Shown: piece after piece, positions 3,410 through 24,003 of the stretch
How positions within the stretch are numbered: the first letter of the stretch is position 1
Layout: each line of letters starts with the position of its first letter
NCBI GenBank assembly: GCA_017302835.1
Contig: JAFLCC010000014.1
Coordinates: forward strand, 1-64,000
From: Deltaproteobacteria bacterium
GTDB lineage: Bacteria; Bdellovibrionota; Bdellovibrionia; Bdellovibrionales; Bdellovibrionaceae
Length of the DNA: 64,000 bases
Direction of reading: 5' to 3'
Translations under genes and position numbers: made by a program
The notes under the pieces: generated by a model
Told to the model about the DNA's origin: nothing
The model's database searches: none
What the model saw: only the letters and a program-made list of their open reading frames with translations

Positions 3410-4384
3410 CTAAATTAATTTACGGATCGATTGCATATTAACGTTGTTAAAATGAAACTTTTCTTTTTCATTTTGGGAAAATCCTTCATGGTCTAGGTCA
3501 CCATTCAAAACTCTATCGTGATATCGATGAGATTCTTCAACAAGTTTATCTCTAAGCATGTATCCATAAGTGTTTGAAACAGGATCTGTGACGCCCTCAT
3601 TGAGCTTATCATTAATTCCAGATTCAATATCAACCAATTTGTTTGCGCCCCAAACTACCATTAAAACTAGATCTCTTGCTGTTTCTTCCTTTGAGGCAAA
3701 GTTCATTTCCATGTGGGCGAAACTACTGTTGCATACTAAGTAACGTATCTTAGTTAGCAATTCTTCAATTTTTTGAAAGCGGTCGCTTAATGTAGAAAAA
3801 TTCAGTTTATCAATTTGGTCTTTACCCTTAACTCGTTCATACTTGTGGGCACGGTGCATATTTCTGTCGTCTACAACGTCAGTAATTAAACTCTCAAATT
3901 TAAGTTTTAACTTGTCGATATCATCAGGAGTAATTTTTATTGGGCTTCTGTTTCTTGCCTCAGGAAACAAATCAAACATAGTTTCTTCATGTGATTTGAG
4001 TGCATTTTCGATAAAATTTTCTTGGATTTCTAATTCTGTCCTCTCAATTTCTTCAGCTGTCGGAACAAATCCTATACAGATGGTGCTTCCTTTCACGGGA
4101 GAAACATTTGCCGCTTTCAGCGGTTTTATTTGATGTGTGTTGGCTTTTAATTTATTAAAGAAACCTCCACTCCCCAGCATTCCTTTAGCTAAGGATGCAA
4201 AATCTACTACTAGCATATCCCATGTATCATGAAGCATTCGAAAGACAATATCGTTTTTAACTTGAAAGGTTTTACCTTTTGTAACCTCAGCGAACTGCGT
4301 TTCAACTTCAGTAAGGAAATAAAGGCGAGTCTTAATCCTAGATAAAGTATCTTCCGTTTCTCTTATAATTAGCTCAACACTCAT
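3410..4384 (-). CDS. HEPN-motif protein of a PIN-linked cassette
   Basis: 324 aa, no signal peptide or membrane segment. The central part carries R174-x5-H180 within DDRNMHRAHKYER, the R-x4-6-H signature of HEPN ribonucleases; the surrounding helices and the HRAHKYE context resemble AbiU2-like HEPN proteins. The N-terminal half is helical (HDTWDMLVVDFASLA), the C-terminus is charged. It starts 30 bases after the stop of the PIN-domain gene and lies with it inside the conjugation region. Family-level assignment is tentative; a ribonuclease or defence role is inferred from the motif and neighbour only. Confidence 0.5.
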   Translation of the reverse strand: MSVELIIRETEDTLSRIKTRLYFLTEVETQFAEVTKGKTFQVKNDIVFRMLHDTWDMLVVDFASLAKGMLGSGGFFNKLKANTHQIKPLKAANVSPVKGSTICIGFVPTAEEIERTELEIQENFIENALKSHEETMFDLFPEARNRSPIKITPDDIDKLKLKFESLITDVVDDRNMHRAHKYERVKGKDQIDKLNFSTLSDRFQKIEELLTKIRYLVCNSSFAHMEMNFASKEETARDLVLMVVWGANKLVDIESGINDKLNEGVTDPVSNTYGYMLRDKLVEESHRYHDRVLNGDLDHEGFSQNEKEKFHFNNVNMQSIRKLI

Positions 4385-5436: not shown

Positions 5437-6918
5437 TTAGCTATTGCGTAGTTCCGGAAACCGGATCTTAAACACACTTGAAGCCCCATGCGGAGTCTCA
5501 ATCCCATGTGCTATCAAAACAGCCCCCACCCCGGTCGGTAACGTCTTCAACAAGTCCGGTGACGCTCGAAATTGATGAGCATCTCTTGTGGTCCCCTCCC
5601 CGATCACCTCTGCGGAATCAATGTCCTTTGCATTAGTGATTCGTTGTGTAGTTTTCTGAATATCCTTCGTTCCAAAACACCGAGATAAAAACTCGGCTGA
5701 ATCAGGATCATTTATTCGCAAAACTATTTTTGTCGCCGCATTGTCCGTGATGCGATTTAAGAATCCTTTTGATACTTCCATTACATCACCAATACTTTGA
5801 TGAGAAAAATGAAGAGCAAATCCTGCGGATCTTGCTTTTGAAATCAGATCTGCAAATTCAGGACAGGCAAAAGTCGCAAACTCGTCAAGATAGACTGGAA
5901 CGAGTTTTCTTGGTTTTGCCTGTCCTCGTTCCCTATGCGCTGTTCCGGCCAAAAAATTTAAATGGTTAATAAGAAGTTTTCCGACAATCCCGACGATTTG
6001 GGGTGACATGAGACTTTGTAATCTATAATAAATTACCGATCCCGATTCAGAATCTGATAGATTTATCTTTGATTCACCGATTGGAGAAAGAATCTTTTTT
6101 AAATGGCCAAGTGTAAGTGATTTAACTTGATCGCGTAGTCCCGACAAATCCTGAAAATCCTTAACAGCTAAAGCCTGTGGAAAATCCCCACTATTGACGT
6201 AATGTGAAAATGAATTTGGAGTTTCAAGAATTTCTGAAATATCTATAAGATTTGGATTTTTACCATTAAGTTCATAATATCGTTGAAAGACTCTTTGAAG
6301 TGACGATAAAGCTTTTGATTTATAGTATTCTTCACTCCATGTGAGTGAAGAAAAAAGACGTTGGGCTGCCTCTAGCGGAGATCCCGACTGAAGTGGATCA
6401 TATCCAGTAGAATTTTCATCTGTCAGATCAAAAACACGAAGTCTATCTACTGGAACCCAATTGTAGAGTTCGTTCAAAAATGAAGTATCACCTTTAGCGT
6501 CCATAATAATGCTACCTAAGCCGCGCTGAACATCTTGTCTTAGAAAGTTCAGAATAACACTTTCAGTTTTTCCTGATCCCGTTGCACCTAAAATATGAAT
6601 GTGTCTGGTTCTTATTTTATCAGGAAGATAAATACTTTCATCCATTTCGCAATCTCGGCCCATTACGATTGAATTTTCTGATGGGAGCAACAGACTTTCT
6701 GGAATTTCCTTAATTTGCTCCAGTCGCTTTCTATTTGTCTTACCCCAAGGTGAAAGAAATTGAAGCGCTAGAAGAATTCCGAAAATCAACAGCCCTGTGC
6801 TTATTAAAATAACCAGAGCACGATCAATCCCAGTAAGATTCTGAAAGCCTTCGTAAAGCCAGAGACTAATAAGGCAAACCGGAATAAGCGCAAGAGTAGA
6901 ATAATTTTGATCGTTCAT
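5437..6918 (-). CDS. VirD4-like type IV coupling protein
   Basis: 493 aa. Two N-terminal membrane segments (about residues 7-22 and 33-55) precede a hexameric ATPase domain with Walker A GATGSGKT at 111-118, an acidic MDAKGD segment, Walker B YLDEFATF near residue 350, and the TraG/TraD-type motif SKARSAGFALHFSHQS. Coupling proteins bring relaxase-DNA to the secretion channel at the inner membrane and power transfer. It is the last gene of the secretion operon, sharing one base (TAATG) with the VirB10 gene. A 75-base gap separates it from the PIN cassette. Family identification is firm. Confidence 0.93.
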   Translation of the reverse strand: MNDQNYSTLALIPVCLISLWLYEGFQNLTGIDRALVILISTGLLIFGILLALQFLSPWGKTNRKRLEQIKEIPESLLLPSENSIVMGRDCEMDESIYLPDKIRTRHIHILGATGSGKTESVILNFLRQDVQRGLGSIIMDAKGDTSFLNELYNWVPVDRLRVFDLTDENSTGYDPLQSGSPLEAAQRLFSSLTWSEEYYKSKALSSLQRVFQRYYELNGKNPNLIDISEILETPNSFSHYVNSGDFPQALAVKDFQDLSGLRDQVKSLTLGHLKKILSPIGESKINLSDSESGSVIYYRLQSLMSPQIVGIVGKLLINHLNFLAGTAHRERGQAKPRKLVPVYLDEFATFACPEFADLISKARSAGFALHFSHQSIGDVMEVSKGFLNRITDNAATKIVLRINDPDSAEFLSRCFGTKDIQKTTQRITNAKDIDSAEVIGEGTTRDAHQFRASPDLLKTLPTGVGAVLIAHGIETPHGASSVFKIRFPELRNS

Positions 6919-9300: not shown

Positions 9301-9971
9301 AAATTTTTCCTAACTCTAAGAACCAATTCTGAAAATTGAGAATTTTTCTGACTTAAATTAGTTGAAAAAGATTTGAACGAGCCACCACGAGTAGCTACAG
9401 ACCTTGTTTCCCGTTCATTTCCTTCCGCTAACATCTGAGCCAGTAAACTGGTGATGTGGCTTTGAATGACCTGAGACTGCGATTCTAAGGCAATCAAGGT
9501 TCCGACTCCTGATGCGGTAAGCTTTTGCGCTACCCCAGGAGAAGCGTCAGCTCCCCTTCGTTCCATTTCTTTGCCGGACTTAAATGTCGTGGCCGTTTCT
9601 GGACCCACGCGCGCCACAAGATTCATTGCGCGAGAAAGTTCATGCTCAATTTGATCATATTTTTCAGATCGGTATTCTTTGGGAATGGTATGGTAAACAA
9701 TCCTCAGCCGATTCAATGCCTCTCGTGGATCTTTCCATTTTTCCCATTCCGATGGTTGAACAACTTCTGCAATTGTCTTTATTCTATTTATACGGTCTTT
9801 GATTCCCCTCATTTCATCGTTCATAATCTGACTTTGGCGCTGAAGCTCATACATGGTATGTAAGGTGTTAGCAACGATCTGTACCAGCAAAGGCAAATCT
9901 CCGCCAAAAAAATCTGCCTTTGCAGAAAATGGCGCAATCCAAAATACGGCGATTAAAATTAACTTTTTCAA
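9297..9971 (-). CDS. VirB5/TrbJ-like periplasmic protein
   Basis: 224 aa. A signal peptide is clear (KLILIAVFWIAPFSAKA, cleavage after about residue 19). The mature part is almost entirely helical, with long amphipathic stretches (YELQRQSQIMNDEMRGIKDRI, then a second pair after residue 150), as in TrbJ and VirB5, the minor pilus proteins. The gene overlaps VirB4 and VirB6-like genes by four bases each. No catalytic residue is expected or seen. Confidence 0.72.
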   Translation of the reverse strand: MKKLILIAVFWIAPFSAKADFFGGDLPLLVQIVANTLHTMYELQRQSQIMNDEMRGIKDRINRIKTIAEVVQPSEWEKWKDPREALNRLRIVYHTIPKEYRSEKYDQIEHELSRAMNLVARVGPETATTFKSGKEMERRGADASPGVAQKLTASGVGTLIALESQSQVIQSHITSLLAQMLAEGNERETRSVATRGGSFKSFSTNLSQKNSQFSELVLRVRKNL

Positions 9972-12031
9972 TTTTCTTCCTTTCGTATGGAGATATTTTC
10001 GGTATTGGCCAGTTTGTAAAACTCAGGTGTCGGATATAGACGAAATATCTGACTCATGGTTGGACTGAGTGCGAAGAACTCTGAATACACTGGTTTTTTA
10101 GATGTCACAGATAAGGCTCTAGAAATATCAGAGTCCGGTAAATCAAATGTTTGCTTCAAGAATTCAGCGGCAGCTCCATTCTGGAGAAATATTTTCGTGA
10201 AACTATTTGTGAAAATCATTTTCGCAAAGGCTTCGTCACCATAGTCAGCCAAGTTCTGAGTAATGGAAACAATACCAGCTCTATATTTTCGAAGCGTTCG
10301 GTACATTTCTTCTAAGAAACTTTTGCTTTGCGCGAAGAATCTCCACACTTCATCAAATACTATGAGTGTTCGAGAATAGGTTCCCTTAAGAAGATCACCC
10401 CACAGGAGTTCCGACAATAAAAGAATTGTTGTTCGCTGCAAAACGGGATCGGCATCCAGCTCCTTGAAATCAAATGCGTTTACCTGAGCGCCGATCATGC
10501 TTTGCAAATCTTCACGGATGGGAACATCATCAAGTGCTAGATGCGGTTTTAACCAGTGAGCAATATCTTGATAAAATCGCTCGGGCTTTTCACTACCAAG
10601 CCTCACTAGCTCGGAGATTTTCAGGTTTGTGCCTTCTAAATGTCGAAGCAAGTCGTCGATGGCCACTCGATGTGAATGGGTGATATGACTTCCCGACCCG
10701 CATAGAGTTTCGATGAAAGTTCTATAAAAACCTGTTCCATTTACTGGGCGTAACCGCAAAAAACTTGCGAGCAGTCCGTGCGCTTCTTCCACCGTCAATA
10801 ATTGGCTAACTCCACCGTTGGCTTCAATGATTCGTCGATATGATCCACCAATATCAAAAATACAAAGCCTTGTTAGCGGCTCGTCTTTAAGTACTGAAGA
10901 CAGAATTGCATTCATCAAAAAGCTTTTTCCTGACCCCGATGCCCCACAGATAAAAGAGTTGAAATTCAAATTTTCTTTCGAAAATAAATTTAAATGCGAA
11001 ACCTCATTACTCCGTGACCGCAGCGCCAGAGAAGAACTATCATTAGAACGGGAAAAATCATGTAGCAGTGGCAAAACATGAGCTAAATTTTCAGAAAGAA
11101 TTGGTAACTTTCTAATCCCAAGTGTTTTGCCGCCAGGTAAGTGGCTAGCTATCACCGGAAGCGTACCAAGTCCTTCTGGATACAGTCCGGCATTTCCAAT
11201 GCCGGAAACCAATCGTTCAAAATCATTCGCTAGATCTTGAGTCTCTTGTTCAGTTCCTGAAACAGTTAAGCCGATTGAAATTTCAAAAAGCGTTTCCTTT
11301 GAAACTAGAATTCGCTCTAGGGTTTCTTCGGAAGAACTTAGAACAGAATTTGACTCAATATTTTTGACTTCAAGCGAACTCGTTACAGAAAGCGCATGAC
11401 TTACTCGACGTTTGGCTTCTAGTTGTCGTTTAATCTTCTTTCTATCTGGGATCTGAATTTTGATCGACAAAGTAAAAGGCGATAAACATTCAAACACTGG
11501 TTGCAGACAACCTTTCCATGTTACCTGCGGAAGTTCAGTCAATGAAAGTACTCTAACAGTGCATTTATCTGCACGGATACAATCTTTCTCCCAGACAACA
11601 TCTGGTAAATTACTTTTTTCAATTTTCTTACCGAAAATTGTTGAAAGATATGACTTCCACGTGTCTTCGGAAAGTAATCGTGAACTCAGTTTCAATTCAT
11701 TAAGGACTGCTTGAAAATGCGAATAACTTTCTTCCTTCTTAACTTTTTCAAAAACAAGTACAGTCGTCTTGAGTCCTGTAATTTCATGCTCCTCTCGAGT
11801 GCGAAACAAAACAATCTGAACATCAAATGAATTTGGAAGTCTTGATAACAGCTCGGACAATTTTTGAAAAAATGAATCCGAGCTAGTTCCTTCTAAATTT
11901 TCTTCAAATAGCCCAAGAGAAAGAGGCTCCATTTCAAAAGATTTAAAAATAGAGCCATCGCTAGATTCAACGATTCCATCGGAAACCCATTTCGCCTGAA
12001 TGATTGCTTTAGTTAACGAGTATTTTCTCAT
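9968..12031 (-). CDS. VirB4-like conjugation ATPase
   Basis: 687 aa, within the usual VirB4/TrbE/TraC range. The N-terminal 330 residues form the CagE/TrbE-type domain. The ATPase domain has Walker A GASGSGKS near residue 365, a DIGGSYRRI segment after it, Walker B TLIVFDEVWRFF near 560, and the motif ITQNLADYGD thereafter. It supplies energy for pilus assembly and DNA transfer at the inner membrane. It follows the VirB3 gene after one base and is the longest gene of the secretion operon. Confidence 0.94.
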   Translation of the reverse strand: MRKYSLTKAIIQAKWVSDGIVESSDGSIFKSFEMEPLSLGLFEENLEGTSSDSFFQKLSELLSRLPNSFDVQIVLFRTREEHEITGLKTTVLVFEKVKKEESYSHFQAVLNELKLSSRLLSEDTWKSYLSTIFGKKIEKSNLPDVVWEKDCIRADKCTVRVLSLTELPQVTWKGCLQPVFECLSPFTLSIKIQIPDRKKIKRQLEAKRRVSHALSVTSSLEVKNIESNSVLSSSEETLERILVSKETLFEISIGLTVSGTEQETQDLANDFERLVSGIGNAGLYPEGLGTLPVIASHLPGGKTLGIRKLPILSENLAHVLPLLHDFSRSNDSSSLALRSRSNEVSHLNLFSKENLNFNSFICGASGSGKSFLMNAILSSVLKDEPLTRLCIFDIGGSYRRIIEANGGVSQLLTVEEAHGLLASFLRLRPVNGTGFYRTFIETLCGSGSHITHSHRVAIDDLLRHLEGTNLKISELVRLGSEKPERFYQDIAHWLKPHLALDDVPIREDLQSMIGAQVNAFDFKELDADPVLQRTTILLLSELLWGDLLKGTYSRTLIVFDEVWRFFAQSKSFLEEMYRTLRKYRAGIVSITQNLADYGDEAFAKMIFTNSFTKIFLQNGAAAEFLKQTFDLPDSDISRALSVTSKKPVYSEFFALSPTMSQIFRLYPTPEFYKLANTENISIRKEEN

Positions 12032-12032
12032 T

Positions 12033-12320
12033 TTATTTTTCCTGTTTTTTTAAACTTCTGCCCGCGTGCCCCAAGTAAATATGCGGTTCGATAACAAATC
12101 TCATTAGCAATTCAAGATGGCCATTTTTTTGACCATGTGAAATGAATCGAAGTATTGCTAAAGTTCCAAGCCCAAGCCCCCAAGATAAAAACAAAGGGGC
12201 TTTCATAATATTAAGAATGACATTGGAGCCAGCAAGAACAGAAAAAGCCGTCACAATGTGACTGACTTCAAATCCCCAAAGTTGTGACCTGTTCATATTA
12301 CTTGTGGGACAGTTCTTCAT
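12033..12320 (-). CDS. VirB3-like membrane protein
   Basis: 95 aa with two close hydrophobic segments (VTAFSVLAGSNVILNIM and PLFLSWGLGLGTLAILRFI) after a short polar start, then a basic tail (GRSLKKQEK). This is the layout of VirB3/TrbD, a small inner-membrane protein that partners VirB4. The gene overlaps the VirB2 stop by four bases and is followed by VirB4 with a one-base gap. Assignment rests on size, topology and order. Confidence 0.75.
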   Translation of the reverse strand: MKNCPTSNMNRSQLWGFEVSHIVTAFSVLAGSNVILNIMKAPLFLSWGLGLGTLAILRFISHGQKNGHLELLMRFVIEPHIYLGHAGRSLKKQEK

Positions 12321-12589
12321 CGAACCACCCGCTGAATTAAATCAACAATACTTTGTGCACCAAAAAGAATTGTCGCACCCGTAACCGCATAGACCAAGTG
12401 TTGCTTGGCGTTTATATTTCCTGTGAAAAAACTGAATGCCGCAAATCCAAGCCCTAGCACTGCAAAGATTGGTAAAATAGAACCAAGAAGAACATTTTTT
12501 AGTCCCATCAATGATGACTCAACTGATGCATGTGCAAAAGGAGCTGCAATCATTATAAATATAATTAGTGCAAAATGTTTTTTACTCAT
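12317..12589 (-). CDS. VirB2-like pilin
   Basis: 90 aa from ATG at 12589, chosen because AGGAG lies seven bases upstream; longer in-frame forms lack a site. A signal peptide (HFALIIFIMIAAPFAHA) is followed by two hydrophobic helices separated by a short glycine/asparagine loop (FFTGNINAKQH), ending with a basic tail. This is the standard VirB2/TrbC pilin layout: after signal removal, the mature protein of about 66 aa would polymerise into the pilus. It lies first among the core secretion genes. Confidence 0.82.
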   Translation of the reverse strand: MSKKHFALIIFIMIAAPFAHASVESSLMGLKNVLLGSILPIFAVLGLGFAAFSFFTGNINAKQHLVYAVTGATILFGAQSIVDLIQRVVR

Positions 12590-12788
12590 GTGTTTTCTCC
12601 TCATTGTTTTGAAGTTGGATGACGTAACGCTGACTTGGCAACATATAGAGTTCAAAACTAAGTGAGCCTCCTGATTTGGATGCCCACGCACGCCCTACAC
12701 GATTCCATGCCGTTTTCTTTTCTGGTGTTCCGTTTTGTTTAGTCTCGTACTCTTTAGCGACGAGGATGTCGTAAAAACCTATATTCAT
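12582..12788 (-). CDS. Small conserved-type protein of conjugative elements
   Basis: 68 aa from ATG at 12788, which has an excellent AGGAGGAAAC leader. The protein (MNIGFYDILVAKEYETK...) holds a KKTAWNRVGRAWASKSGGSLSFELYMLP segment split by strands, a pattern (W-x-R-V-G ... GG-x-LS ... LP) seen in small proteins that recur at the front of conjugation operons. I cannot name its function. It overlaps the VirB2 start by eight bases, so it probably belongs to the same transcript. Confidence 0.62.
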   Translation of the reverse strand: MNIGFYDILVAKEYETKQNGTPEKKTAWNRVGRAWASKSGGSLSFELYMLPSQRYVIQLQNNEEKTHE

Positions 12789-13329: not shown

Positions 13330-14682
13330 TCAAATACCTTTTAAATGCAAGATATAAGCCTTATCAACACTTAACCGTTTAGACAAGAATTCGGATGCCT
13401 TAGCTAAATCCGACTTACCTGGAGTTGACCCCCAGTGAACCAAAACACTAACTTCAATTGTTTTATCACTTTTTTCTACATTCTTTTTACTAACAAACAC
13501 ACCGACTATTCTCGGAAAAACGACGTTCATCTCTTCGCTCACTTTTTTCGACAACGTGGCCAGATTCTTAAAACTATTTAGCTCAGCTTCGTTTTGTTTT
13601 AACTTGATTTGAAGTTCAGTTGATGCTCGTTCAGTCGTCGATAGCTTTTGTCCCATTTTCTTTTCCAGACTTTCAGAAAACGTAGACTGGCGAATTTCAA
13701 TTGATTCAGGTGAAAGCGAATAGAATTTTGCTTTATCCTTCAAAATTATTAGTTCATCATCGTCGAGTGGTTCACCAAGAAGCGCCACTTTGATTTTAGG
13801 ATTTTTGAAGTTGTAAACAATCTCGCTCTCAAGGACCAAAGATCTCTCAGAACGCAACTCTTGTGCAATGTATTTATTAGCCTGAGATTTGAAGAAACTT
13901 TCACGCTGTAAATACCATGCCATAAAAAAGCTAGGAATTAACACGACTATTCCGACGTAAGTGATCCAGCGATTAATTTTTTTACGATGTGCTGACTCCA
14001 CATCGGTTGACTTGTAAAACCCGAGATAGCGAACAAATATAAATGTCGAAATGCTTATGAACACACTATTGATAACAAATAAATACAAAGCACCAAAGAA
14101 ATAGCTAAAGTTTTGCGTCGCTAATCCAAACCCCGCAGTGCAAAGTGGCGGCATTAAGGCTGTTGCTATGGCAACACCAGGAATAGCATTACTTTTCTCT
14201 TTACGTGATATGGCAACAATTCCAGCAGCGCCGCCGAAAAATGCGATGAGAACATCAAAGAAACTTGGTCGAGTGCGCGCAAGTAATTCAGACTGCACTT
14301 CAGACAGGGGCGACAAAATAAAGTAAATCGTAGAAGCTACGATACTGATAAAAACGGCTGCAGCTAAATTCTTCGTCGATTTTTTTAATAAGGCGAAATC
14401 ATAAACGCCTAACGCAAATCCAACACCGACAATTGGACCCATAAGTGGTGAAATCAACATGGCTCCAATAATGACTGCCGCTGAATTCAAGTTTAAACCG
14501 ACTGAAGCAATTAAAATTGCAAACACGAGTGTCCAAGCATTTGCACTTTGAAACTCTACATTAGAGTTAATCAATTCGATTGTTCCAACTTTATCGGTGT
14601 CTGTTTTTAGATTGAAAAGACGCTTTAATAATTGAACTGCGCCTGTACCGTTGCTGTCGTGGATATTTTTATTTTCCTGCAT
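13330..14682 (-). CDS. DUF389 polytopic membrane protein
   Basis: 450 aa from ATG at 14682 (a TTG six codons upstream is possible; neither has a clear ribosome binding site). Five or six membrane helices span about residues 50-245 and contain the DUF389 hallmarks SAAVIIGAMLISPLMGPIVG and IPGVAIATALMPPLCTAGFGLA. The C-terminal third is soluble, with a coiled-coil-like stretch (SLEKKMGQKLSTTERAS...). The family's transport substrate is not established. It lies downstream of the MscS-type gene on the same strand with a 42-base gap, fitting an osmotic or ion-stress unit. Confidence 0.85.
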   Translation of the reverse strand: MQENKNIHDSNGTGAVQLLKRLFNLKTDTDKVGTIELINSNVEFQSANAWTLVFAILIASVGLNLNSAAVIIGAMLISPLMGPIVGVGFALGVYDFALLKKSTKNLAAAVFISIVASTIYFILSPLSEVQSELLARTRPSFFDVLIAFFGGAAGIVAISRKEKSNAIPGVAIATALMPPLCTAGFGLATQNFSYFFGALYLFVINSVFISISTFIFVRYLGFYKSTDVESAHRKKINRWITYVGIVVLIPSFFMAWYLQRESFFKSQANKYIAQELRSERSLVLESEIVYNFKNPKIKVALLGEPLDDDELIILKDKAKFYSLSPESIEIRQSTFSESLEKKMGQKLSTTERASTELQIKLKQNEAELNSFKNLATLSKKVSEEMNVVFPRIVGVFVSKKNVEKSDKTIEVSVLVHWGSTPGKSDLAKASEFLSKRLSVDKAYILHLKGI

Positions 14683-14724
14683 AGACTGAAAATATAGCAA
14701 TCACGTTGCGAGAAGTCATTAATT

Positions 14725-16050
14725 TTAAATTACGTTTTCGCCTTGATCTGGCAAATCTGATTCTCTTGATTGACGATTCAGCTCTGCAGCCTCTGCACGG
14801 ACTTCTTCTAAAAGCGGAGATCTGTTTGTTACAGATTTATTAGTTTTCTCGGTCTTAGATTTCACGTTGCGTCCGATGGACAAGCCGTTTGTAAATACAA
14901 TCTCTCGGTCAGGATCTGGAAAGCGAAACCCATTTGAAAGAAGAAGATTCTTCACTTCTAATAAGATGTGGCTTGATACTTTAAATATACTGACTTCTCG
15001 GGCATTGAGCCAAAAATAAACTCGCACATTTACTGCGGACCCAGCGAGAGCATCCACTAAAGCCCACGGTTCAGGATCTTTTAGAACAATATTGCTTTTT
15101 CCTAAAAGATCTAAGACGAGCGCTTGTGCTTCCTCTATTGAATCATTGTAATCAAGGCCAAAGACAAAATCGCAACGCATTTTCGGATTTGCCGTCATGT
15201 TCGTAACGTTGCTTTTATAAACTATACTATTGGGCATTAAAATATGGTTGCCAGCGAAATCAATAATCAAAGTTGAACGTGAAGTCACCTTTTGAACAAT
15301 TCCTTCATATTCTCCAATCTTTACCCAATCGCTAGGACGAAATGGTTTTTTAATACTTAGAAGAATACTAGCGGCGTAATCTTCAAAACTATTTTTCAAA
15401 CCCAAACCAAGTATTAGACCCAAAATGCCTGTCCCACCCAAAACGGTGAAAGCTAAACCCGCCAGACCTGAAATTCTTAATGCTAAATACAGACCTAATA
15501 AAAATATTGGTACAGACAGAATTTTGGATGTGGCGTTCAACAAGAGTGGACTTGGAATTTTTTTTACGAAGACTCGACGAAACCCATAGGAAGCCAGAAA
15601 AAACAGGAAAAATGAAATGGTAAGTACAAAAATGGCTGTTAAAATTGTTGGGAGGTGGCGCACAAGCGCTACGTTAAAAATATCAATCTCCTCCCGCGCT
15701 GGGGCAAGATCTAAGATCTGATTGGGGTGACTCTTGATTTGATTTTGAACGGCTACCACCCCGTCCATTCGATTTGCTAAATTATTAACCCATTCGATCT
15801 GTGAATCTTCGTCGACAAAACCCGACAAAATTGCAACTCCAGATATCACTTTCACCTTAACCTGATCGTATGATCCTACAGCGGATAGTATATCGGTCAA
15901 ACGCTGTTGGATCTTTTTATCGGAGATGATTTCTTCGACAGCAATTGACTTAGGCTCAGCGACGACAGGCACAGATGAATTGTCTGCCAATGAAATTGAA
16001 GACGATAGAATAGTAATAAGTAACCAGCTTGAAACCAGATTCATTTTCAT
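14725..16050 (-). CDS. BON-domain MscS-family mechanosensitive channel
   Basis: 441 aa. A signal peptide (about residues 1-22) leads to a periplasmic BON domain at about 36-105 (VKVISGVAILSGFVD, VQNQI). Three membrane helices follow; the last, GLAFTVLGGTGILGLILGLGLK, is the glycine-rich pore helix, and the beta domain starts with FEDYAASILLSIKKPF and PNSIVYKSNVTN, both typical of MscS. Such channels open under membrane tension to release solutes on hypo-osmotic shock. BON-MscS fusions occur in Proteobacteria. The C-terminal 60 residues are polar and charged. Family assignment is firm. Confidence 0.9.
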   Translation of the reverse strand: MKMNLVSSWLLITILSSSISLADNSSVPVVAEPKSIAVEEIISDKKIQQRLTDILSAVGSYDQVKVKVISGVAILSGFVDEDSQIEWVNNLANRMDGVVAVQNQIKSHPNQILDLAPAREEIDIFNVALVRHLPTILTAIFVLTISFFLFFLASYGFRRVFVKKIPSPLLLNATSKILSVPIFLLGLYLALRISGLAGLAFTVLGGTGILGLILGLGLKNSFEDYAASILLSIKKPFRPSDWVKIGEYEGIVQKVTSRSTLIIDFAGNHILMPNSIVYKSNVTNMTANPKMRCDFVFGLDYNDSIEEAQALVLDLLGKSNIVLKDPEPWALVDALAGSAVNVRVYFWLNAREVSIFKVSSHILLEVKNLLLSNGFRFPDPDREIVFTNGLSIGRNVKSKTEKTNKSVTNRSPLLEEVRAEAAELNRQSRESDLPDQGENVI

Positions 16051-16292
16051 TTACCAAAACCTCTGTCACACGATTGATCGATACCTATCTTAAATTAACT
16101 TCAACTCCCAATCCCACATGACTTCATTAATGCAATAGTCAGTCCAAAAGTTGAATTAAATAAATTTTCGAATGAGATTTTGCTGAAAAGCTCGTTTAGT
16201 GACCTCATTTCCTGCCAACTAACTCGATGCGAATTGCAGAACTATGGATTTCTTCGTATCATTTTAACGCATATAAACATTTTAGTCTAAAT

Positions 16293-16354
16293 GGGTGCAG
16301 GAGCTTCCTGTAGTTTTGGAAAGTAGGGTCGCCTTCCGATGGAGGATTACGCCT
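16293..16354 (+). promoter_or_regulatory. Structured leader A, riboswitch-like, before DapB-antiporter operon
   Basis: The leader runs GGGT, a hairpin (CAGGA-GCT-TCCTG, 16298-16310), AGTTTT, six purine-rich bases, then TAGGGTCGCC (16324-16333), then CCTTCC-GAT-GGAGG, then GCCT directly at the ATG. The second hairpin contains the ribosome binding site GGAGG. The same order with the same conserved blocks recurs at 18523-18593, with different stem sequences but preserved pairing. This is the pattern of a translation-controlling riboswitch; the antiporter downstream suggests an ion ligand such as Na+ or Li+. Confidence 0.68.
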
Positions 16355-17128
16355 ATGGAAGCTATCAATGTTGGCCTTTTGGGCTTCGGGAAAACCGGAT
16401 CAATAGTAGCTAAAGAACTAGTCAATGATAAAAGCCTAAATTTAAAATGGGTTTGTCGTAGGAATATTGTACCTGGATTCGCGCATGCGAGTCATGCTGT
16501 TGGTCATGATGATAGTTTTGCACCATTTGTCGAAGCCAAACAATTCAGTCAAGAATTCCTACGGAAAAATCCTGTAGATTTTGTAATTGATTTCTCATCA
16601 AATACAGCTAGTGGACTATATGAGCTCATCGCCTCGAGTGGGGCAAAAATCGTGACTGCAATTTCAAAGTATGATCTATCAGAAATGGAAAAAATAAAGT
16701 CAGCCTCTGCCAAAACGGCAATTCTATACTCTCCCAACATTACTCTCGGAATAAACTGGCTAATTATTGCCTCAAAAGTTTTAAAAGGAATTATTCCCCA
16801 TGCTGACATTGAAGTTGTAGAGGAACACTTTAGAGCAAAAAAGGAAGTTTCTGGTACAGCACTTAGAATTGCTGATCACCTCAATCTGACTGCAAAGGAC
16901 CATGTAAATTCGATTCGAGTCGGTGGAATTGTTGGCAAACATGAAATTATATTTGGACTACCATACCAGACAATACGACTAACTCATGAAAGCATCAGTC
17001 GTGAAGCATTCGGTACGGGGGCCATTTTTGCAGCGAAATGGCTTTTGAATAAACCGAATGGAATGTATTCTATGGAACAACTTTTTCATGAAAAATTCAT
17101 GAAGACAATTAAAGAGCTAGAATTTTAG
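16355..17128 (+). CDS. DapB-like dinucleotide-binding reductase
   Basis: 257 aa from ATG at 16355; GGAGG ten bases upstream decides this over a longer in-frame form that would cross the leader. The N-terminus has a Rossmann motif (VGLLGFGKTG), then VDFVIDFSS and the dihydrodipicolinate reductase signature EEHFRAKKEVSGTALRIAD, in which the catalytic-region His and Lys of DapB are kept but the second His is Phe and the DAP triplet is changed. It is translated upstream of the antiporter with a 13-base gap. The reaction may be tetrahydrodipicolinate reduction, but the altered motif and the antiporter partner make a different substrate possible. Confidence 0.72.
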   Translation: MEAINVGLLGFGKTGSIVAKELVNDKSLNLKWVCRRNIVPGFAHASHAVGHDDSFAPFVEAKQFSQEFLRKNPVDFVIDFSSNTASGLYELIASSGAKIVTAISKYDLSEMEKIKSASAKTAILYSPNITLGINWLIIASKVLKGIIPHADIEVVEEHFRAKKEVSGTALRIADHLNLTAKDHVNSIRVGGIVGKHEIIFGLPYQTIRLTHESISREAFGTGAIFAAKWLLNKPNGMYSMEQLFHEKFMKTIKELEF

Positions 17129-17141
17129 CGAAAGCCCACAT

Positions 17142-18416
17142 ATGACAAACGAACTCATTATTCAATATACGGCGACGGTCTTTTTTGCATTGGCCATTCT
17201 TCATACATTTTCGGTTAAATTTTTTCAAAATTTATCTCACAAGTATGTCGAAGGATCTGTTGGAGAGAACCTCTTCCACTTGCTAGGCGAAGTTGAAGTT
17301 GTCTTTGGGATCTGGGCCGGACTATTTATCATTTTTTTCATGATGGTCTCTGGCGTTCCGCAAACAATTGGATACCTAGAGGGACGAAATTTTACTGAAC
17401 CAATGTTTGTTTTTGTAATCATGGCTGTTTGCGCTTCACGGCCCATACTTGCTCTTAGCGAAAAAGTGATTCGGTTGGTCGGTAAAATTATTCCTATTGA
17501 TAGCAATGTTGGGTTTTTCGCGGCCACATTAATAGTGGGACCGATCTTAGGTAGTTTCATTACAGAACCTGCTGCTATGACCGTTACGGCACTGATTCTT
17601 CTTAAGAATTTTTATCAGCGGGACATCTCTGAGAAGCTTAGATATGCAACAATTGGACTTTTATTCGTTAATATTTCCATAGGTGGAACCTTAACTCCGT
17701 ATGCAGCACCGCCTGTTTTAATGGTCGCAGCTAAGTGGAACTGGGATTTAATGTTTATGCTTTCAAATTTTGGTTGGAAAGCTGTTCTTGCGATACTTGT
17801 GTCTACAATTATTGTGACCTATCGCTTTCGGAAAGAACTGACTACAATTGGAAAAGAAAAAAAAGTTGAAACTAAGACATTAAGAATTCCAGCTTGGGTC
17901 ACCGTACTGCACATTTTTGTTCTTATTGCGATTGTTATGTCGTCTCATTATTTGGTACTGTTTACAGGAATATTTTTATTTTTCCTTGGTATAGCTTCGG
18001 TAACTAAAGAGTACCAAAATGAACTTCAAATCAAAGAATCATTGTTGGTTGGTTTTTTCCTAGCAGGCCTTGTTGTACTTGGAGGATATCAAAGCTGGTG
18101 GCTCGAGCCCATACTAAGTCGCTTAACGTCTTTGCCGCTTTATCTTGGGTCGATTTCATTGACTGCTTTTACTGACAATGCAGCTATTACTTATCTTGGT
18201 AGCCAGGTTTCCGGTCTAACTGATGCTTCAAAGTATGCTCTGGTTGCGGGAAGTGTTGTTGGTGGAGGTCTTACAGTTATTGCCAATGCTCCAAATCCAG
18301 CGGGTTACAGCACTTTGAATTCTGCTTTTGGGCCAGATGGGATCAGTCCAGGTTTGCTATTCCGCAGCGCCATAGTACCTACAATCATTGCGGGGCTTTG
18401 TTTTTGGTTTCTTTAA
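17142..18416 (+). CDS. Putative Na+/H+ antiporter (Na_H_antiport_3-like)
   Basis: 424 aa with about ten to eleven membrane segments. Recognisable blocks are FFAATLIVGPILGSFITEPAAMTV, the glycine/proline-rich VNISIGGTLTPYAAPPVLMVAA, and near the end SISLTAFTDNAAITYLGSQ and GLTVIANAPNPAGYSTL, which match the putative Na+/H+ antiporter family of the ion-transporter superfamily. It would exchange protons for sodium or lithium across the inner membrane. It follows the DapB-like gene by 13 bases under the shared structured leader, so both are likely regulated by it. Confidence 0.83.
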   Translation: MTNELIIQYTATVFFALAILHTFSVKFFQNLSHKYVEGSVGENLFHLLGEVEVVFGIWAGLFIIFFMMVSGVPQTIGYLEGRNFTEPMFVFVIMAVCASRPILALSEKVIRLVGKIIPIDSNVGFFAATLIVGPILGSFITEPAAMTVTALILLKNFYQRDISEKLRYATIGLLFVNISIGGTLTPYAAPPVLMVAAKWNWDLMFMLSNFGWKAVLAILVSTIIVTYRFRKELTTIGKEKKVETKTLRIPAWVTVLHIFVLIAIVMSSHYLVLFTGIFLFFLGIASVTKEYQNELQIKESLLVGFFLAGLVVLGGYQSWWLEPILSRLTSLPLYLGSISLTAFTDNAAITYLGSQVSGLTDASKYALVAGSVVGGGLTVIANAPNPAGYSTLNSAFGPDGISPGLLFRSAIVPTIIAGLCFWFL

Positions 18417-18522
18417 ATAAGATTCCAAACTGCTCTCTTTGACTGGACCTGTGCGCAGATGAAAAAATTTAGCAGTAGGTATCATATTGTCAGCATCGTA
18501 TAATTAAACTAACAAAATAACA

Positions 18523-18593
18523 GGGTTTCACTCTTTTTCGGAGTGAGAGTTTTCAAGTGGTAGGGTCGCCATTTAAAAAAAGAATGGTGGCCT
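18523..18593 (+). promoter_or_regulatory. Structured leader B, riboswitch-like, before 33-aa membrane peptide
   Basis: GGGT, then hairpin TCACTC-TTTTTCG-GAGTGA (18528-18546), AGTTTT, CAAGTGG, the conserved TAGGGTCGCC (18561-18570), a hairpin CCATT...AATGG (18569-18587), then GGTGGCCT at the ATG. It matches leader A in block order and spacing, and the stems differ in sequence while keeping pairing, which is covariation. The ribosome binding site GGTGG is again next to or inside the last stem. Confidence 0.68.
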
Positions 18594-18695
18594 ATGTCTG
18601 AGAAGCTTTTTGATATCGCGACTGTGTTAATTCCGGTAGTCATTATTATCTTCATAATAATCCAATACGAAAATAGCAAGAAAAAAAAAGACTGA
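18594..18695 (+). CDS. 33-aa single-span membrane peptide
   Basis: ATG at 18594 to TGA at 18693-18695 encodes MSEKLFDIATVLIPVVIII, then FIIIQYENSKKKKD. One hydrophobic helix of about 17 residues is followed by a basic tail, giving an Nout-Cin or membrane-anchored peptide. GGTGG lies just upstream, within leader B. The fit of the start to the conserved leader and the clean membrane-helix composition argue that it is translated. It may modulate a transporter such as the adjacent antiporter, as other small membrane peptides do; this is an inference. Confidence 0.6.
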   Translation: MSEKLFDIATVLIPVVIIIFIIIQYENSKKKKD

Positions 18696-18711
18696 GTTTA
18701 GTTTTCAAATG

Positions 18712-19125
18712 TTAGCTGCCGTAGTTCACCATAGCTTGCAGGACGGCGTTTAACTTTTGTAAGTCGTTGCTCACAGGAGTTAGGCATTTCGTCCAATCTT
18801 TCTTTTGTGAAGCGATTCGTTCCATGGCTTGCTTGCCATGTATGGTGATAGAAATAATTTTCTTTCTTGAGTCCTTTGGATCTTCAGCTTGAAACAAAAA
18901 TCCTTTTTTTTCAAGGCGCTTTAAGGTTTGGGTTAAGGTGCTCGGGTGAATGCCAACAGATTTTGCAAGCGCATGCGCAGAGGTTCCTGGCATATCGATA
19001 AGCTGTTCTAAAAGACACCATTGCACTAAACTTAAACCAACTTTTTCCTCTGACTTTTTATTGAAGTTGTGAATCGAAATACCTAAGCGAAATAAGGAAA
19101 CTAGAGGCTGAACATCTTTGCTCAT
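18712..19125 (-). CDS. MarR-family regulator
   Basis: 137 aa. Winged helix-turn-helix: GTSAHALAKSVGIHPSTLTQTLKRLEKKGFL is the recognition helix region, followed by the wing EDPKDSRKKIISITIHGK. Such regulators are dimeric and often sense small ligands. The gene overlaps the otsB-like gene by four bases (ATGA), so it is the last member of the otsA-otsB transcript and may regulate it or report on it. Promoter and operator are not obvious. Confidence 0.85.
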   Translation of the reverse strand: MSKDVQPLVSLFRLGISIHNFNKKSEEKVGLSLVQWCLLEQLIDMPGTSAHALAKSVGIHPSTLTQTLKRLEKKGFLFQAEDPKDSRKKIISITIHGKQAMERIASQKKDWTKCLTPVSNDLQKLNAVLQAMVNYGS

Positions 19126-19910
19126 CTTAACTCCTCTAATTTTGAACTATCATCTCTAGGCTGGTGAAATTTAATAAGAGTTTTTATCAACCGATTAATT
19201 TCAGATTGTCTCTCTATATAATAGCTAGCTTGTGATTTGATTTTTTTTCCCACTCTGACTGACATTATTTGGCCAGAATGATAGGGCAAACTGAAAATAT
19301 CTTCATCTGTGTCGTCATCACCGATGTAAAAGGCATGTTTCATTTCTGAAATCTGCATGAGCTTTTGAAGGGCTGCGCCCTTATGGGGAGCATCCGCCGG
19401 AAGTATGTTCACCACGCATTTGCCTAAAATAATGTTAGGTTTAGGAGTGATGTAACTTATTATTGATTTGATCTGTGCTCTTGCTTTTGTTTTATTTCTC
19501 GCTTTTCTATAGTGAATAGCAATTGAATACACTTTGTCTTCAATTTCAACCCCACTCTCAAATTCTTCGTTATATAAAAGTTTCGTCCATGCAGTGCATG
19601 TTTTTTGCGCTTTTTCTAAAGAGCCATTTTTGCTTTCTATGCCCTCTAATCCATGGTTTCCTACAAGAAATTTTGGATTAAATGAAATCCGCTTCTTCAG
19701 GTCCTCGATACTTCGGCCGGAAATAATTGCGACTGGAGCAATTTTCGAGAGCTGGCTTAAAAGAACCTCTGTTGTCTTCGCCATTGCTGCGGCTTCAGGA
19801 TCACTAACAATCTTCGCCAGTGTTCCGTCAAAATCAAATGCATAAAGAGTTTTTGTAAAAGAAAGTGACTCAAGTACTACAAGACTTCCTTTTGAAAAAA
19901 GTGGTATCAC
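19122..19910 (-). CDS. otsB: Trehalose-6-phosphate phosphatase
   Basis: 262 aa HAD-family phosphatase. Motif I is FDFDGT with nucleophile D26 and acid D28, motif II appears as VAIISGRS, and GDDDTDED supplies the metal-binding acidic cluster. It removes phosphate from trehalose-6-phosphate to give trehalose, a compatible solute. It follows the synthase gene by a four-base overlap and precedes the MarR gene by the same, forming a three-gene operon. The length agrees with OtsB proteins. Confidence 0.93.
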   Translation of the reverse strand: MIPLFSKGSLVVLESLSFTKTLYAFDFDGTLAKIVSDPEAAAMAKTTEVLLSQLSKIAPVAIISGRSIEDLKKRISFNPKFLVGNHGLEGIESKNGSLEKAQKTCTAWTKLLYNEEFESGVEIEDKVYSIAIHYRKARNKTKARAQIKSIISYITPKPNIILGKCVVNILPADAPHKGAALQKLMQISEMKHAFYIGDDDTDEDIFSLPYHSGQIMSVRVGKKIKSQASYYIERQSEINRLIKTLIKFHQPRDDSSKLEELR

Positions 19911-22147
19911 GTTTTTAATAACCCCTCGCCAAATTTCTTAATATGGCCAAATAAACGAGTTCTTTGTCGAAGCCTTGCAGCATCAAGCAACATTCGCCCA
20001 GCCCATCGAAAAACATTAAATTCTTGAATAAATCCGCGCATACTTCGAATTCGATTACGTTGTTCGTCCTTAGGCATTTCGAGTGCGACATGCAAAGCCG
20101 CTGCACATTGATCAATATTATATGGATTTACAATTAGTGCTTCTAGTAACTCTCTAGATGCTCCTGTGAACTGACTCAAAATCAAAACTCCTTGTTCATC
20201 ATCGCGAGAGGCCACAAATTCTTTTGCTACTAAATTCATTCCGTCGTGAAGGCTACTGACAAAACAAAGATTGGAGCCTCTGTAATATTCATACACTTGA
20301 AGTGGTTCATGATGCTCTACTTTCAAAAGGATTGGCTCATAACCATCTCTGCCGAATCTCTGGTTAATTTTTATTGCTAGCGCGCGAACTTCCGATTCGA
20401 ATTGCTGGTATTGAGGTATTGTCGATCGCGATGGGGCCGCAATTTGTATGAAAGTAAATCTTCCAATCCACTTTGGTTCCAATTCAAATAGACGTTCCAC
20501 CGCTAAAAATCTTTCCAGAATGCCCTTTGTGTAATCAAGTCGATCAATTCCAATCCCTATAAGCCGATCAGTTGGAAAATTATTGAGTTGGCGAATGTGT
20601 TTTTGACACTCTTTGACTGACTTTTGTGATTTGATCCACTTAACTGGATACTCGATAGAAATCGGATAGTGGGCGACAGCAGTAAGTTGACCTTTATATG
20701 AAACAGTCGAAGTTTCTCGGTCAATTCGGCTTTCGATAAAGCGATCAACGGCATCAATAAAGTTATTGCAATGAAATCGTGTATGAAAGCCAAGAATACT
20801 GCTTCCCAGAAGTCCGTCGATTAACTCTTCTCGCCAAGGACAAATACCAAACACTTCCGGATTCGGAAATGGAATGTGCCAAAAGGTAATGACTGTCGCC
20901 TTCGGAAGACGTTCACGAATCATTTTTGGCAAAAGCGCCAAATGATAGTCTTGAATCAAAATTACGGGGTTGTCTGTTTTGGCTTCCTCGACAACTGCTT
21001 TTGCGAATTTTTCATTTGCGGATACGTATTGCGCCCAATCAGCTGATCTAAATATTGGCCGCACATGTGCAATATGACATAAGGCCCATATGCCTTCATT
21101 CGCAAAGCCATAGTAGTAACCTTGTTCTTCCTCTTTGGTCAGCCAGACTCTTCTAATCTGATAAGAGGGATCTTCAGGTGGTACACGTACATGATCATGC
21201 TTGTCCACAACTTCTCGGTCCGCATTTCCACTTCCATGAGCGATCCATGTTCCTGAGCAGGCTCGCATGATCGGTTCTAGTGCCGTTACTAAACCGCTTG
21301 CCGGAAACTGAATTTCAATTTTTTCATTTCTACGGACATGGATGTAGGGCTCTCGATTGGAAACGACAAGTATCTCGTCTCCAGTTAGTTCATTGTTCAA
21401 AATTTCTTTCAAAGTTTTAGAGTTCCAACTGATCTGATTTTCATCTCTGGTCCGTCGCTCAGTTTCTAAATCACGGATAAGAAGTCGAAGATCTTTAACA
21501 ATCGGTCTTAACTCAGGAGATTCTATTTGCGAATTTGGCCGAACCAACCCTTCACCTTTGAGGATGGCTCGAATTCCCTTCACCCAACCACGCCAACTCA
21601 TTTGGGCAATAAAAACCGTAATCAGCGATATCAGCGTCGCAAGACCTGCGAACAAATAGAAGATATAAACTTTTGTGTCAGCACTTCGTTTTTCTAAAAA
21701 ACTCATGTCATGAAGAAGAACCAGTTGTCCAAATCGTTTTCCGGCATCGTCAATAGGATGAAAAGCAATATGAATTGGCCCTTTCGACAATTGCAACACG
21801 CGACTATGGGACTTGCGTGAGTCGTCCGCAGCCTCACACAAAATTTGGTCCGGGTACGTTTGGGTTTTATAGATCAGTCGATTTTCATTATCACAAAATG
21901 CCAACGCATAAAGCCGTTCGTCTTGAATGGCTCGGTCAAAAATTTTTTGCATCTTTTTTTCGGAAGGATTTTCGATAATTGAAACAATCGATTCTTGTAG
22001 AGTATTCGTGATGAGTTTTGTTCGAATATCAATATCGCGACTGAACCATTTGTTAAAAATCAACGAGTCGACCAATGGCACGATACCATAGGCGACTAAT
22101 CCAATAACGAGCATAAGTGGAACGATGAAGCGAAGCGATAATCTCAT
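19907..22147 (-). CDS. otsA: Trehalose-6-phosphate synthase with N-terminal membrane sensor
   Basis: 746 aa, against about 470 for a plain OtsA. Residues about 5-28 and 164-188 are membrane helices enclosing a roughly 135-residue periplasmic domain (LITNTLQESIVS..., ALAFCDNENRLIYKT, GPIHIAFHPIDD), like a sensor-kinase input domain. A linker with coiled-coil character follows, then the GT20 domain from about residue 255: VVSNREPY, IQDYHLALLPKMIR, FWHIPFPNPEVF, GIGIDRLDYTKGI and LHDGMNLVAKEFVA. The enzyme joins UDP- or GDP-glucose to glucose-6-phosphate. The fusion suggests membrane location and extracellular control of trehalose synthesis. The gene heads the otsB and marR transcript. Confidence 0.9.
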   Translation of the reverse strand: MRLSLRFIVPLMLVIGLVAYGIVPLVDSLIFNKWFSRDIDIRTKLITNTLQESIVSIIENPSEKKMQKIFDRAIQDERLYALAFCDNENRLIYKTQTYPDQILCEAADDSRKSHSRVLQLSKGPIHIAFHPIDDAGKRFGQLVLLHDMSFLEKRSADTKVYIFYLFAGLATLISLITVFIAQMSWRGWVKGIRAILKGEGLVRPNSQIESPELRPIVKDLRLLIRDLETERRTRDENQISWNSKTLKEILNNELTGDEILVVSNREPYIHVRRNEKIEIQFPASGLVTALEPIMRACSGTWIAHGSGNADREVVDKHDHVRVPPEDPSYQIRRVWLTKEEEQGYYYGFANEGIWALCHIAHVRPIFRSADWAQYVSANEKFAKAVVEEAKTDNPVILIQDYHLALLPKMIRERLPKATVITFWHIPFPNPEVFGICPWREELIDGLLGSSILGFHTRFHCNNFIDAVDRFIESRIDRETSTVSYKGQLTAVAHYPISIEYPVKWIKSQKSVKECQKHIRQLNNFPTDRLIGIGIDRLDYTKGILERFLAVERLFELEPKWIGRFTFIQIAAPSRSTIPQYQQFESEVRALAIKINQRFGRDGYEPILLKVEHHEPLQVYEYYRGSNLCFVSSLHDGMNLVAKEFVASRDDEQGVLILSQFTGASRELLEALIVNPYNIDQCAAALHVALEMPKDEQRNRIRSMRGFIQEFNVFRWAGRMLLDAARLRQRTRLFGHIKKFGEGLLKT

Positions 22148-22227
22148 ATTTTTCTTACTTTACTTTGATATCAAATGAAAGTATACATTTTAATGAATTT
22201 ATCTACAACTTTAGGAACAAACAACGC

Positions 22228-24003
22228 ATGTATCCATACGGGCTAATTGGAAATTGCCAAACCGCTGCATTGATTAACAAGTCTGGCTCAATTGATTGGC
22301 TTTGTTTTCCGAGGCCAGATAGTCCGCCAGTTTTTGGACGCATCTTAGATCCCGAAGGTGGACACTTCTCTATTGAAGGAAAAGGCAGATTCGAAGGTCA
22401 GCAAAACTATATTCCTAATACAACAATTTTAAAAACGACAGTAACCAACGAAGACGGAAGTCAATTTGAAATCACCGACTTCAATCCACGGTTCTATCAA
22501 CATGGTCGCGTCTATCGCCCAATATCACTTTTTAGAATTGTAAAACCAATTAAAGGAAACCCTGCAATTTGTGTGAGTTGCAAACCGGTGGATGGATGGA
22601 CAAAAAAACCTGTTAAACCAATTCGCGGGAACAGTCACCTTAGATTCGAACTGCAAGACGATCACATGCGATTAGCTACAAATATGCCGCTTACTTATTT
22701 ATGCGAAGAAACGCATTTTATTTTGAATGAACCTCTTTATTTTGGACTGACTTGGAGTTTAGGAATCGAAGAAGACTTAGTCAGTGTTTCAGAACGGTTT
22801 TTAAGCCAGACTCTGGATTACTGGACAACGTGGGTTAAGCATTGCTCAATACCGAGCCTCTATCAAAAAGAAACAATTCGATCAGCGCTAACTTTAAAAC
22901 TCCATTGTTATGAAGACACCGGCGCAATCCTTGCCGCACTAACTACAAGTCTACCGGAAGAGCGAAATCAGAACCGCAATTGGGACTACCGCTTCTGCTG
23001 GCTTCGCGATGCGTATTTTGTACTTTCGGCTTTTCAAAACCTTGGGCATTTTGAGGAAATGGAAGGATTCATAAAATTCATTCTTAATATTGCCGAAAAG
23101 CACGAACATTCGCGCGAGCGACTTTGGCCCGTTTACCGACTCGATCAAACTCTCCCTCTCCCCGAGGTCGAACACTTAAACTGGCAAGGTTTTGCTGGAA
23201 GCAAACCTGTACGTAGCAACAATCAAGCGGCCGAGCACGTTCAGAATGATGTGTACGGCGAAATGATTCTAACCTTGGCTCCCATTTTTATTGATGAAAG
23301 ATTTCATCACTTAAGAACCAAGGACCTCGAACGACTTCTCGCTCATCTGGGAAAATTTTGTGCCCAAAGCATTTCAAAGCCTGATGCCGGACTTTGGGAA
23401 ATCCGAGATGGTTGGCAAGAGCATTCTTTTTCAAATTTAATGTGCTGGGCGGGGCTTGATCGCATCGAAACTATAAGATCGCTGGGATTTTTACCGGAAC
23501 TGAGTTTCGATTTAACTTCGGCAAAAAAATTAGCTGAAAAATCTATTCGGTCTGCTGTCATCAATGGTTCTCTACGCAATGCCCCTAACGATGAGAGTTT
23601 CGATTCATCGTTGCTACAAATTTCTAACTTAAGATTTCCCGATGAGGACGTTGTAAAAAAAACGGTCGAACAAATTCAAGAAAACCTAAAATTAGAAGCA
23701 AGTTCTTCTACCGCCAGCTTTCTTTACCGCTACCTTCGAAATGATGATTTCGGCCAGCCTAAATCGGCGTTTCTTATTTGCTCTTTCTGGCTGATTCAGT
23801 CGCTGAGTCGAACAGGACAAATAGAAAAAGCGCGCGAAGTGACCAAAAACGTGATGGTTGCCGCTAATTCTCTTGGTCTATTTTCAGAACACTATATTCC
23901 GTCCGAAAGAATGCAGACCGGTAACTTCCCACAAGCATATTCTCACGTCGGACAAATTAATGCAGCCTTTGCGGTGAGTCCGCCGTGGGGCGATGTCCTT
24001 TAA
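22228..24003 (+). CDS. GH15 glucoamylase/trehalase-like glycosidase
   Basis: 591 aa from ATG at 22228 (MYPYGLIGNCQTAALI); a TTG at 22165 would add 21 residues without a good site. The N-terminal block SGSIDWLCFPRPDSPPVFGRIL and the catalytic-domain motif NWDYRFCWLRDAYF, plus LWEIRDGWQEHSFSN and later the ending FPQAYSHVGQINAA, are characteristic of bacterial GH15 enzymes, which include trehalases in Actinobacteria. The inner (alpha/alpha)6 barrel is complete. It is transcribed divergently from otsA across an 80-base gap, so turnover of trehalose or glucans is likely. There is no signal peptide, so it is probably cytoplasmic. Confidence 0.88.
   Translation: MYPYGLIGNCQTAALINKSGSIDWLCFPRPDSPPVFGRILDPEGGHFSIEGKGRFEGQQNYIPNTTILKTTVTNEDGSQFEITDFNPRFYQHGRVYRPISLFRIVKPIKGNPAICVSCKPVDGWTKKPVKPIRGNSHLRFELQDDHMRLATNMPLTYLCEETHFILNEPLYFGLTWSLGIEEDLVSVSERFLSQTLDYWTTWVKHCSIPSLYQKETIRSALTLKLHCYEDTGAILAALTTSLPEERNQNRNWDYRFCWLRDAYFVLSAFQNLGHFEEMEGFIKFILNIAEKHEHSRERLWPVYRLDQTLPLPEVEHLNWQGFAGSKPVRSNNQAAEHVQNDVYGEMILTLAPIFIDERFHHLRTKDLERLLAHLGKFCAQSISKPDAGLWEIRDGWQEHSFSNLMCWAGLDRIETIRSLGFLPELSFDLTSAKKLAEKSIRSAVINGSLRNAPNDESFDSSLLQISNLRFPDEDVVKKTVEQIQENLKLEASSSTASFLYRYLRNDDFGQPKSAFLICSFWLIQSLSRTGQIEKAREVTKNVMVAANSLGLFSEHYIPSERMQTGNFPQAYSHVGQINAAFAVSPPWGDVL

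Follow-up and report, generated by a model that had tools for sequence, protein, structure and literature searches.

The two similar leaders that sit 2.2 kb apart in the genome of this member of the Bdellovibrionaceae raise the question of what they sense and which genes they control. Both lie on the forward strand of the window, the whole stretch of 64,000 nucleotides that was analysed. A preliminary description had found GGGT, AGTTTT, an identical 10-mer and GCCTATG in both leaders, read them as a translational riboswitch of the Na+ or Li+ type, and asked whether they belong to DUF1646, nhaA-I, nhaA-II or a new class. To our knowledge, few RNAs are able to tell alkali metal ions apart. The leaders are present as earlier described: both have GGGU, a hairpin with covarying arms, AGUUUU and UAGGGUCGCC. 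Across the 3,628,733 bases of the assembly, exactly two sites match the pattern TAGGGTCGCCN{3,30}GCCTATG, leaders 1 and 2, and reversed-pattern controls have no match. Candidate –10 boxes, TATAAA in leader 1 and TATAAT in leader 2, lie about 20-25 nt 5' of GGGT, and among 33 examples hexamers resembling a –10 box show a modest enrichment between –30 and –20 relative to GGGT. This spacing suggests that the element probably lies at the very 5' end of its own transcript.

Leader 1 precedes a dapB-like gene, which is separated by 13 nt from the gene of a putative Na+/H+ antiporter, and leader 2 begins 106 nt 3' of the antiporter gene, before a 33-codon ORF (Table 1). Both dapB and Na+/H+ antiporters are reported targets of the Na+-I riboswitch (PMC9337991). 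The wider region at window positions 13330-24003 holds an MscS-type channel with a BON domain, a DUF389 protein, the antiporter operon, a trehalose-phosphatase, a trehalose-phosphate synthase and a GH15/trehalase-like gene, and looks like an osmotic/ion-stress neighbourhood. Separately, a TraG/VirB4-like ATPase is encoded at 9968-12691 on the reverse strand of the window. Small membrane ORFs lie upstream of it, which suggests a set of genes for conjugation or type IV secretion.

Table 1 Positions of the leaders, their structural elements and the associated genes in the window
Feature	Position	Strand	Detail or evidence
Leader 1	16293..16357	+	
Candidate –10 box TATAAA, leader 1	16272..16277	+	sequence
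Leader 1 aptamer	16293..16337	+	R1 43.5 bits, E 7.6e-11 (is R1 seed); R2 14.2 bits
Leader 1 aptamer parts	GGGU 16293-16296; P1 16297-16302/16306-16311; AGUUUU 16312-16317	+	
Leader 1 P2 parts	16318-16323/16332-16337; loop UAGGGUCG 16324-16331	+	
Leader 1 OFF hairpin (predicted)	16324..16357	+	MFE fold and partner-swap test
dapB-like gene (PF05173/PF01113)	16355..17128	+	Pfam; TIGR00036 just below cut-off
Putative Na+/H+ antiporter, PF07399 (weaker: DUF1646 family PF07854)	17142..18416	+	Pfam E 3.5e-175
Leader 2	18523..18596	+	
Candidate –10 box TATAAT, leader 2	18499..18504	+	sequence
Leader 2 aptamer	18523..18574	+	R1 63.1 bits, E 1.4e-16 (is R1 seed); R2 22.4 bits
Leader 2 aptamer parts	GGGU 18523-18526; P1 18527-18533/18541-18547; AGUUUU 18548-18553	+	
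Leader 2 P2 parts	18555-18560/18569-18574; loop UAGGGUCG 18561-18568	+	
Leader 2 OFF hairpin (predicted)	18561..18596	+	duplex –18.9 kcal/mol; MFE fold
33-aa one-helix membrane peptide (leader 2 product)	18594..18695	+	alignment, codon changes, genome search

The full unit consists of GGGU, a helix P1, the linker AGU(UUU) and a helix P2 with the loop UAGGGUCG. P1 is GCAGGA/UCCUGU in leader 1 and UUCACUC/GAGUGAG in leader 2, in agreement with the earlier observation of a first hairpin that differs in sequence and keeps its pairing. P2 is formed by the bases directly 5' of TAGGGTCG paired with the CC-NNNN directly 3' of it, and excludes the SD hairpin. It reads AAGUGG[UAGGGUCG]CCAUUU in leader 2, GGAA.G[UAGGGUCG]CC.UUCC with one A.C mismatch in leader 1, and AAACGG[UAGGGUCG]CCGUUU in loci L007 and L102. 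In the alignment of R1, a covariance model built from 14 seeds including leaders 1 and 2, double-sided changes occur at 12 of 12 modelled pairs. Pairing is seen in 91% of the pairing cells, compared to 68% in shuffled alignments, and none of 500 shuffles reaches any of five measures; slid structures bring pairing down to 36-53%. Since the R1 alignment is fitted to the structure, we repeated the test on 33 non-redundant sequences with GGGT, AGT and TAGGGTC as the sole guides to where the arms lie; own arms paired far better than arms swapped between sequences (z 11.4 for P1 and 7.0 for P2). Both results exclude chance or local duplication of a repeated sequence, a reading suggested by two copies 2.2 kb apart in one genome and with next to no probability: in P1 as in P2 the two copies have different arm sequences that nevertheless pair, and dozens of copies precede related genes in other genera, some of them in a second phylum.

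Among the loci searched, R1 detects 37 sites of at least 29.6 bits and a few weaker ones. Three of the 37 are in Verrucomicrobiota (Opitutia) and the others in Bdellovibrionota, so that the search for further copies in relatives, proposed earlier as a check, yielded confident sites in other genera and a second phylum. Matches at E <= 4e-4 are found in 27 of 141 genomes of the order. Genomes of the f17 family, in the same phylum, have either this element or nhaA-I, and three Opitutia MAGs carry the element without a nearby start codon. Two genomes (G004 and G010) have one confident copy each, before the small peptide, and one Bacteriovoracaceae contig (L089) has three copies in 2.4 kb, at 3651-3707(+), 3993-4044(+) and 6021-6073(–), in a genome (G284) with five matches at E<=0.01. 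The viral contigs searched contain no copies. Many relatives have PF07399 genes without a leader, and the element is therefore a patchy regulator. A pattern scan across genomes gave 23 stretches; those outside Bdellovibrionota and Opitutia were taken as chance, because they had only a 12-mer or less than 20 bits and the genomes tested gave no model match at E<=0.01. In other genomes, weak model matches under about 26 bits were taken as chance or ordinary nhaA-I RNAs, except for the weak Verrucomicrobiota site L160, which looks like a true copy.

The genes downstream, among them a new family of one-helix peptides of ~34 residues, fit Na+/Li+ physiology. An nhaA gene (PF06965) follows at six loci (L086, L069, L074, L075, L077 and L096), and a PF07399 antiporter gene in the window and at L006, L007, L087, L101 and L145, as well as behind a GCS2 gene in L009. 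A dapB-like gene is found downstream in the window and at L061, a GCS2-type ligase at L105, L079 and L085, and a Na+-type nucleoside transporter behind one of the three copies of L089. The set of ion-linked targets is widened by a DUF4118 (KdpD-like) histidine kinase and by a PHO4-like transporter, the latter below the Pfam cut-off, which also follow copies of the element (L114:1562-2707 and L116:359-1483).

To which class the leaders belong is answered in part by Rfam 15: scans at the gathering score, and at E<=10 with short stretches as query, gave only chance matches, and the leaders matched none of nhaA-I, nhaA-II and Sodium. A model built from 22 nhaA-I RNAs (R2), comprising Rfam-recognised ones from Bdellovibrionota and Desulfobacterota and two Verrucomicrobiota copies that were found via R1 and judged nhaA-I by eye, behaves differently. 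When R2 is run unfiltered over the whole window, its best match is leader 2 (22.4 bits, E 6e-4), followed by leader 1 (14.2 bits, E 0.065); the third match has 8.6 bits. Conversely, R1 picks up nhaA-I RNAs. The leaders share with nhaA-I/Li+-I (RF03057) the GGGU, P1, the A-G linker, a P2 with a GG-U-N-GGG-N-C-G-CC loop, a P2 3' arm that doubles in the expression platform, and nhaA and other antiporters downstream. In contrast, nhaA-I/Li+-I has AGG and the loop CGGGCC where the leaders have AGU and AGGGUC, the spacing from P1 to P2 is often shorter here, and the small peptide, dapB-like and GCS2 genes are additional targets. C43 and C47 are invariant in 22 of 22 nhaA-I RNAs and AGG is aligned in 19 of 22. 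The copies described here keep the nhaA-I layout, GGGU and GGG, and no confident one has AGG, C43 or C47. Instead A27-G28-U29, A43 and U47 are present in 37 of 37 copies of at least 29.6 bits, which came from R1 without these bases being required, though the R1 seeds carried them. A separate tally of 39 copies used AGT and TAGGGTC as anchors, and for that reason it is no proof by itself that the core is fixed.

These bases bear on the proposal that the leaders are ordinary nhaA-I (Li+-I) riboswitches overlooked by the Rfam model, with core differences due to neutral drift and Li+ as ligand. The common layout, GGGU and GGG loop, the U at loop position 42, which Li+-I also has where Na+-II-like RNAs have C, and nhaA among the main targets all agree with it. 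Neutral drift would, however, give mixtures, whereas AGU, A43 and U47 are fixed in copies of at least 29.6 bits and their nhaA-I counterparts C43 and C47 are themselves invariant; the targets also include, besides nhaA, genes of Na+-coupled transport and dapB, which is reported as a target of Na+-I. We therefore regard an ordinary nhaA-I riboswitch as unlikely, and Li+ or Na+ binding is not to be assumed from kinship, since core bases fixed in nhaA-I differ here. A weak site with an AGG linker and the loop CAGGGGCG before an 84-aa ORF (L080:1501-1562, 26 bits) is a possible intermediate between nhaA-I and the present RNAs. Canonical nhaA-I RNAs in the f17 family of Bdellovibrionota and in Verrucomicrobiota (L051, L052 and L162) precede a predicted membrane protein of about 108-121 aa with similar N-terminal regions, possibly an unrecognised nhaA-I target.

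The remaining classes are more distant or differ in other bases. Na+-II RNAs, rare nhaA-I variants of Deltaproteobacteria, have the same layout, a P2 3' arm engaged in a competing hairpin and an ON response to ligand; their platform is a terminator, whereas that of the leaders is translational. Among the retrieved sequences, nhaA-I copies with C at the first base of the loop segment read GGCCGGGCCG and probably correspond to the Na+-II type. This C (C54 in D. propionicus, its position judged from retrieved sequences) is absent here, with U in 37 of 37 high-scoring copies, and three other core sites also differ from the GGCCGGGCCG copies. Na+-I/DUF1646 (RF03071, 'Sodium') has in common with the leaders the order GGU-P1-A-G-X linker, a U.G-closed GGG loop in P2, a U after GGG, and dapB and Na+/H+ antiporters as targets. 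The Na+-I consensus, as displayed by Rfam for Sodium in a weak match from Verrucomicrobiota, differs in carrying A at X, G at both 43 and 48, and a P1 with a bulge, in contrast to U, A, C and a simple P1 here. Aligned by layout, the base after A-G and loop bases 43, 47 and 48 are U, A, U and C in our copies, G, C, C and C in nhaA-I, and A, G, U and G in Na+-I. With AGU and AGGGUC the leaders lack the AGA linker and gGGGUG loop of Na+-I and do not match its Rfam model, which has no confident example in Bdellovibrionota or Verrucomicrobiota. nhaA-II/Li+-II also governs nhaA-type genes, is reported to have no sequence or architecture in common with nhaA-I (PMC9646797), and gives no Rfam match here. 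To the class question of the preliminary description the answer is thus divided: the leaders are kin of nhaA-I and remoter kin of DUF1646/Na+-I, and no Rfam model matches them. The lack of a match, the nhaA-I kinship and the leaders' own fixed core differences make them a new variant within the superfamily of alkali-ion riboswitches and not a plain nhaA-I member. The variant is undescribed in the open-access literature searched, whose coverage is incomplete, and some copies may sit in published alignments.

The second hairpin of the preliminary description, with the ribosome binding sites GGAGG and GGTGG, exists and is supported by MFE folds and a partner-swap test, but it is a competing SD-blocking fold, and the aptamer helix P2 had been overlooked. 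The P2 loop and 3' arm are complementary to the stretch from the SD through CCUA 5' of the start codon, as in UAGGGUC/GACCCUA of L067. In leader 1 they pair with the SD GGAGG (16341-16345) and the GCCUA 5' of AUG; in leader 2, UAGGGUCGCCAUU pairs with AAUGGUGGCCUA, covering the SD GGUGG (18586-18590) and the start codon region. Over 30 leaders the mean energy of the SD-blocking duplex is –13.4 kcal/mol with its own partner and –11.9 kcal/mol with swapped partners (z –5.4). The SD-blocking hairpin occurs in 26 of 27 MFE folds, with a mean advantage of 7.3 kcal/mol over the P2-enforced fold, whereas in leader 1 the predicted energies of both folds are almost the same. As expected of a translational riboswitch, the aptamer and SD-blocking folds are mutually exclusive and both conserved. 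The predicted preference for the competing hairpin suggests that the ground state is OFF and that ligand-held P2 would turn translation on, a direction we infer from the folds.

The nearly universal stable SD-blocking hairpin would also agree with a protein-binding or temperature-sensing SD hairpin that has no ligand aptamer. This is improbable, as GGGU, AGU and the P1-P2 arrangement are strongly conserved outside the hairpin, P1 covaries far from the SD, and the core is common with validated ion riboswitches. Among these, Li+-I (nhaA-I) is reported to be activated by Li+ and is believed to regulate mostly at the ribosome binding site; Na+-II is reported to be activated by Na+, and an nhaA-I variant that bears a terminator is switched on by ion (PMC9646797). 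Homology to nhaA-I, covariation, the SD hairpin and the gene contexts all favour the translational Na+/Li+-type riboswitch first proposed. Both leaders are likely translational ON riboswitches that represent a variant of the alkali-ion superfamily with its own conserved core; from these comparisons we infer ion binding, with Na+ the most likely ligand and Li+ possible. At low ion levels, pairing of the loop UAGGGUCG and the P2 3' arm with the SD region and CCUA would block translation. A rise in the ion would stabilise GGGU-P1-AGU-P2 and keep the 3' arm in P2, leaving the ribosome site free, so that both the antiporter operon and the gene of the small membrane peptide could be translated.

The 33-aa membrane peptide behind leader 2, proposed earlier as a gene, proved to be a real one: relatives encode a conserved one-helix peptide (L086:5909-6010, L069:1383-1484, L075:1578-1679, L077:1382-1483 and L074:1568-1669), and codon differences are commonest at third positions in five of five pairs compared. 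Members of this unannotated family have roughly 33-67 residues, one hydrophobic segment and a basic tail, and no Pfam match above cut-off. They often stand directly 5' of nhaA: at five loci the distance from the end of the peptide gene to nhaA, or to the longest upstream frame of nhaA, is 6-53 nt. When 141 genomes were searched in six frames with a profile, strong peptide matches lay behind the riboswitch motif, with the sole exception of one genome (G011), whose peptide lacks the motif. The peptide may be a partner of the antiporter.

We suggest tentatively, with somewhat less than even confidence, that a distinct ion specificity arises from the changes G29 to U, C43 to A and C47 to U, and that the variant would form a further functional class in the superfamily, controlling antiporters together with riboswitch-linked membrane peptides of ~34 residues as their partners. 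The variant presents the scaffold of Li+/Na+ switches with other fixed core bases, and comparison could reveal the bases on which ion specificity depends. It also draws attention to a family of small membrane proteins, unannotated and linked to Na+/H+ antiporters, and it suggests a way in which predatory bacteria sense sodium, in strains open to culture and manipulation.
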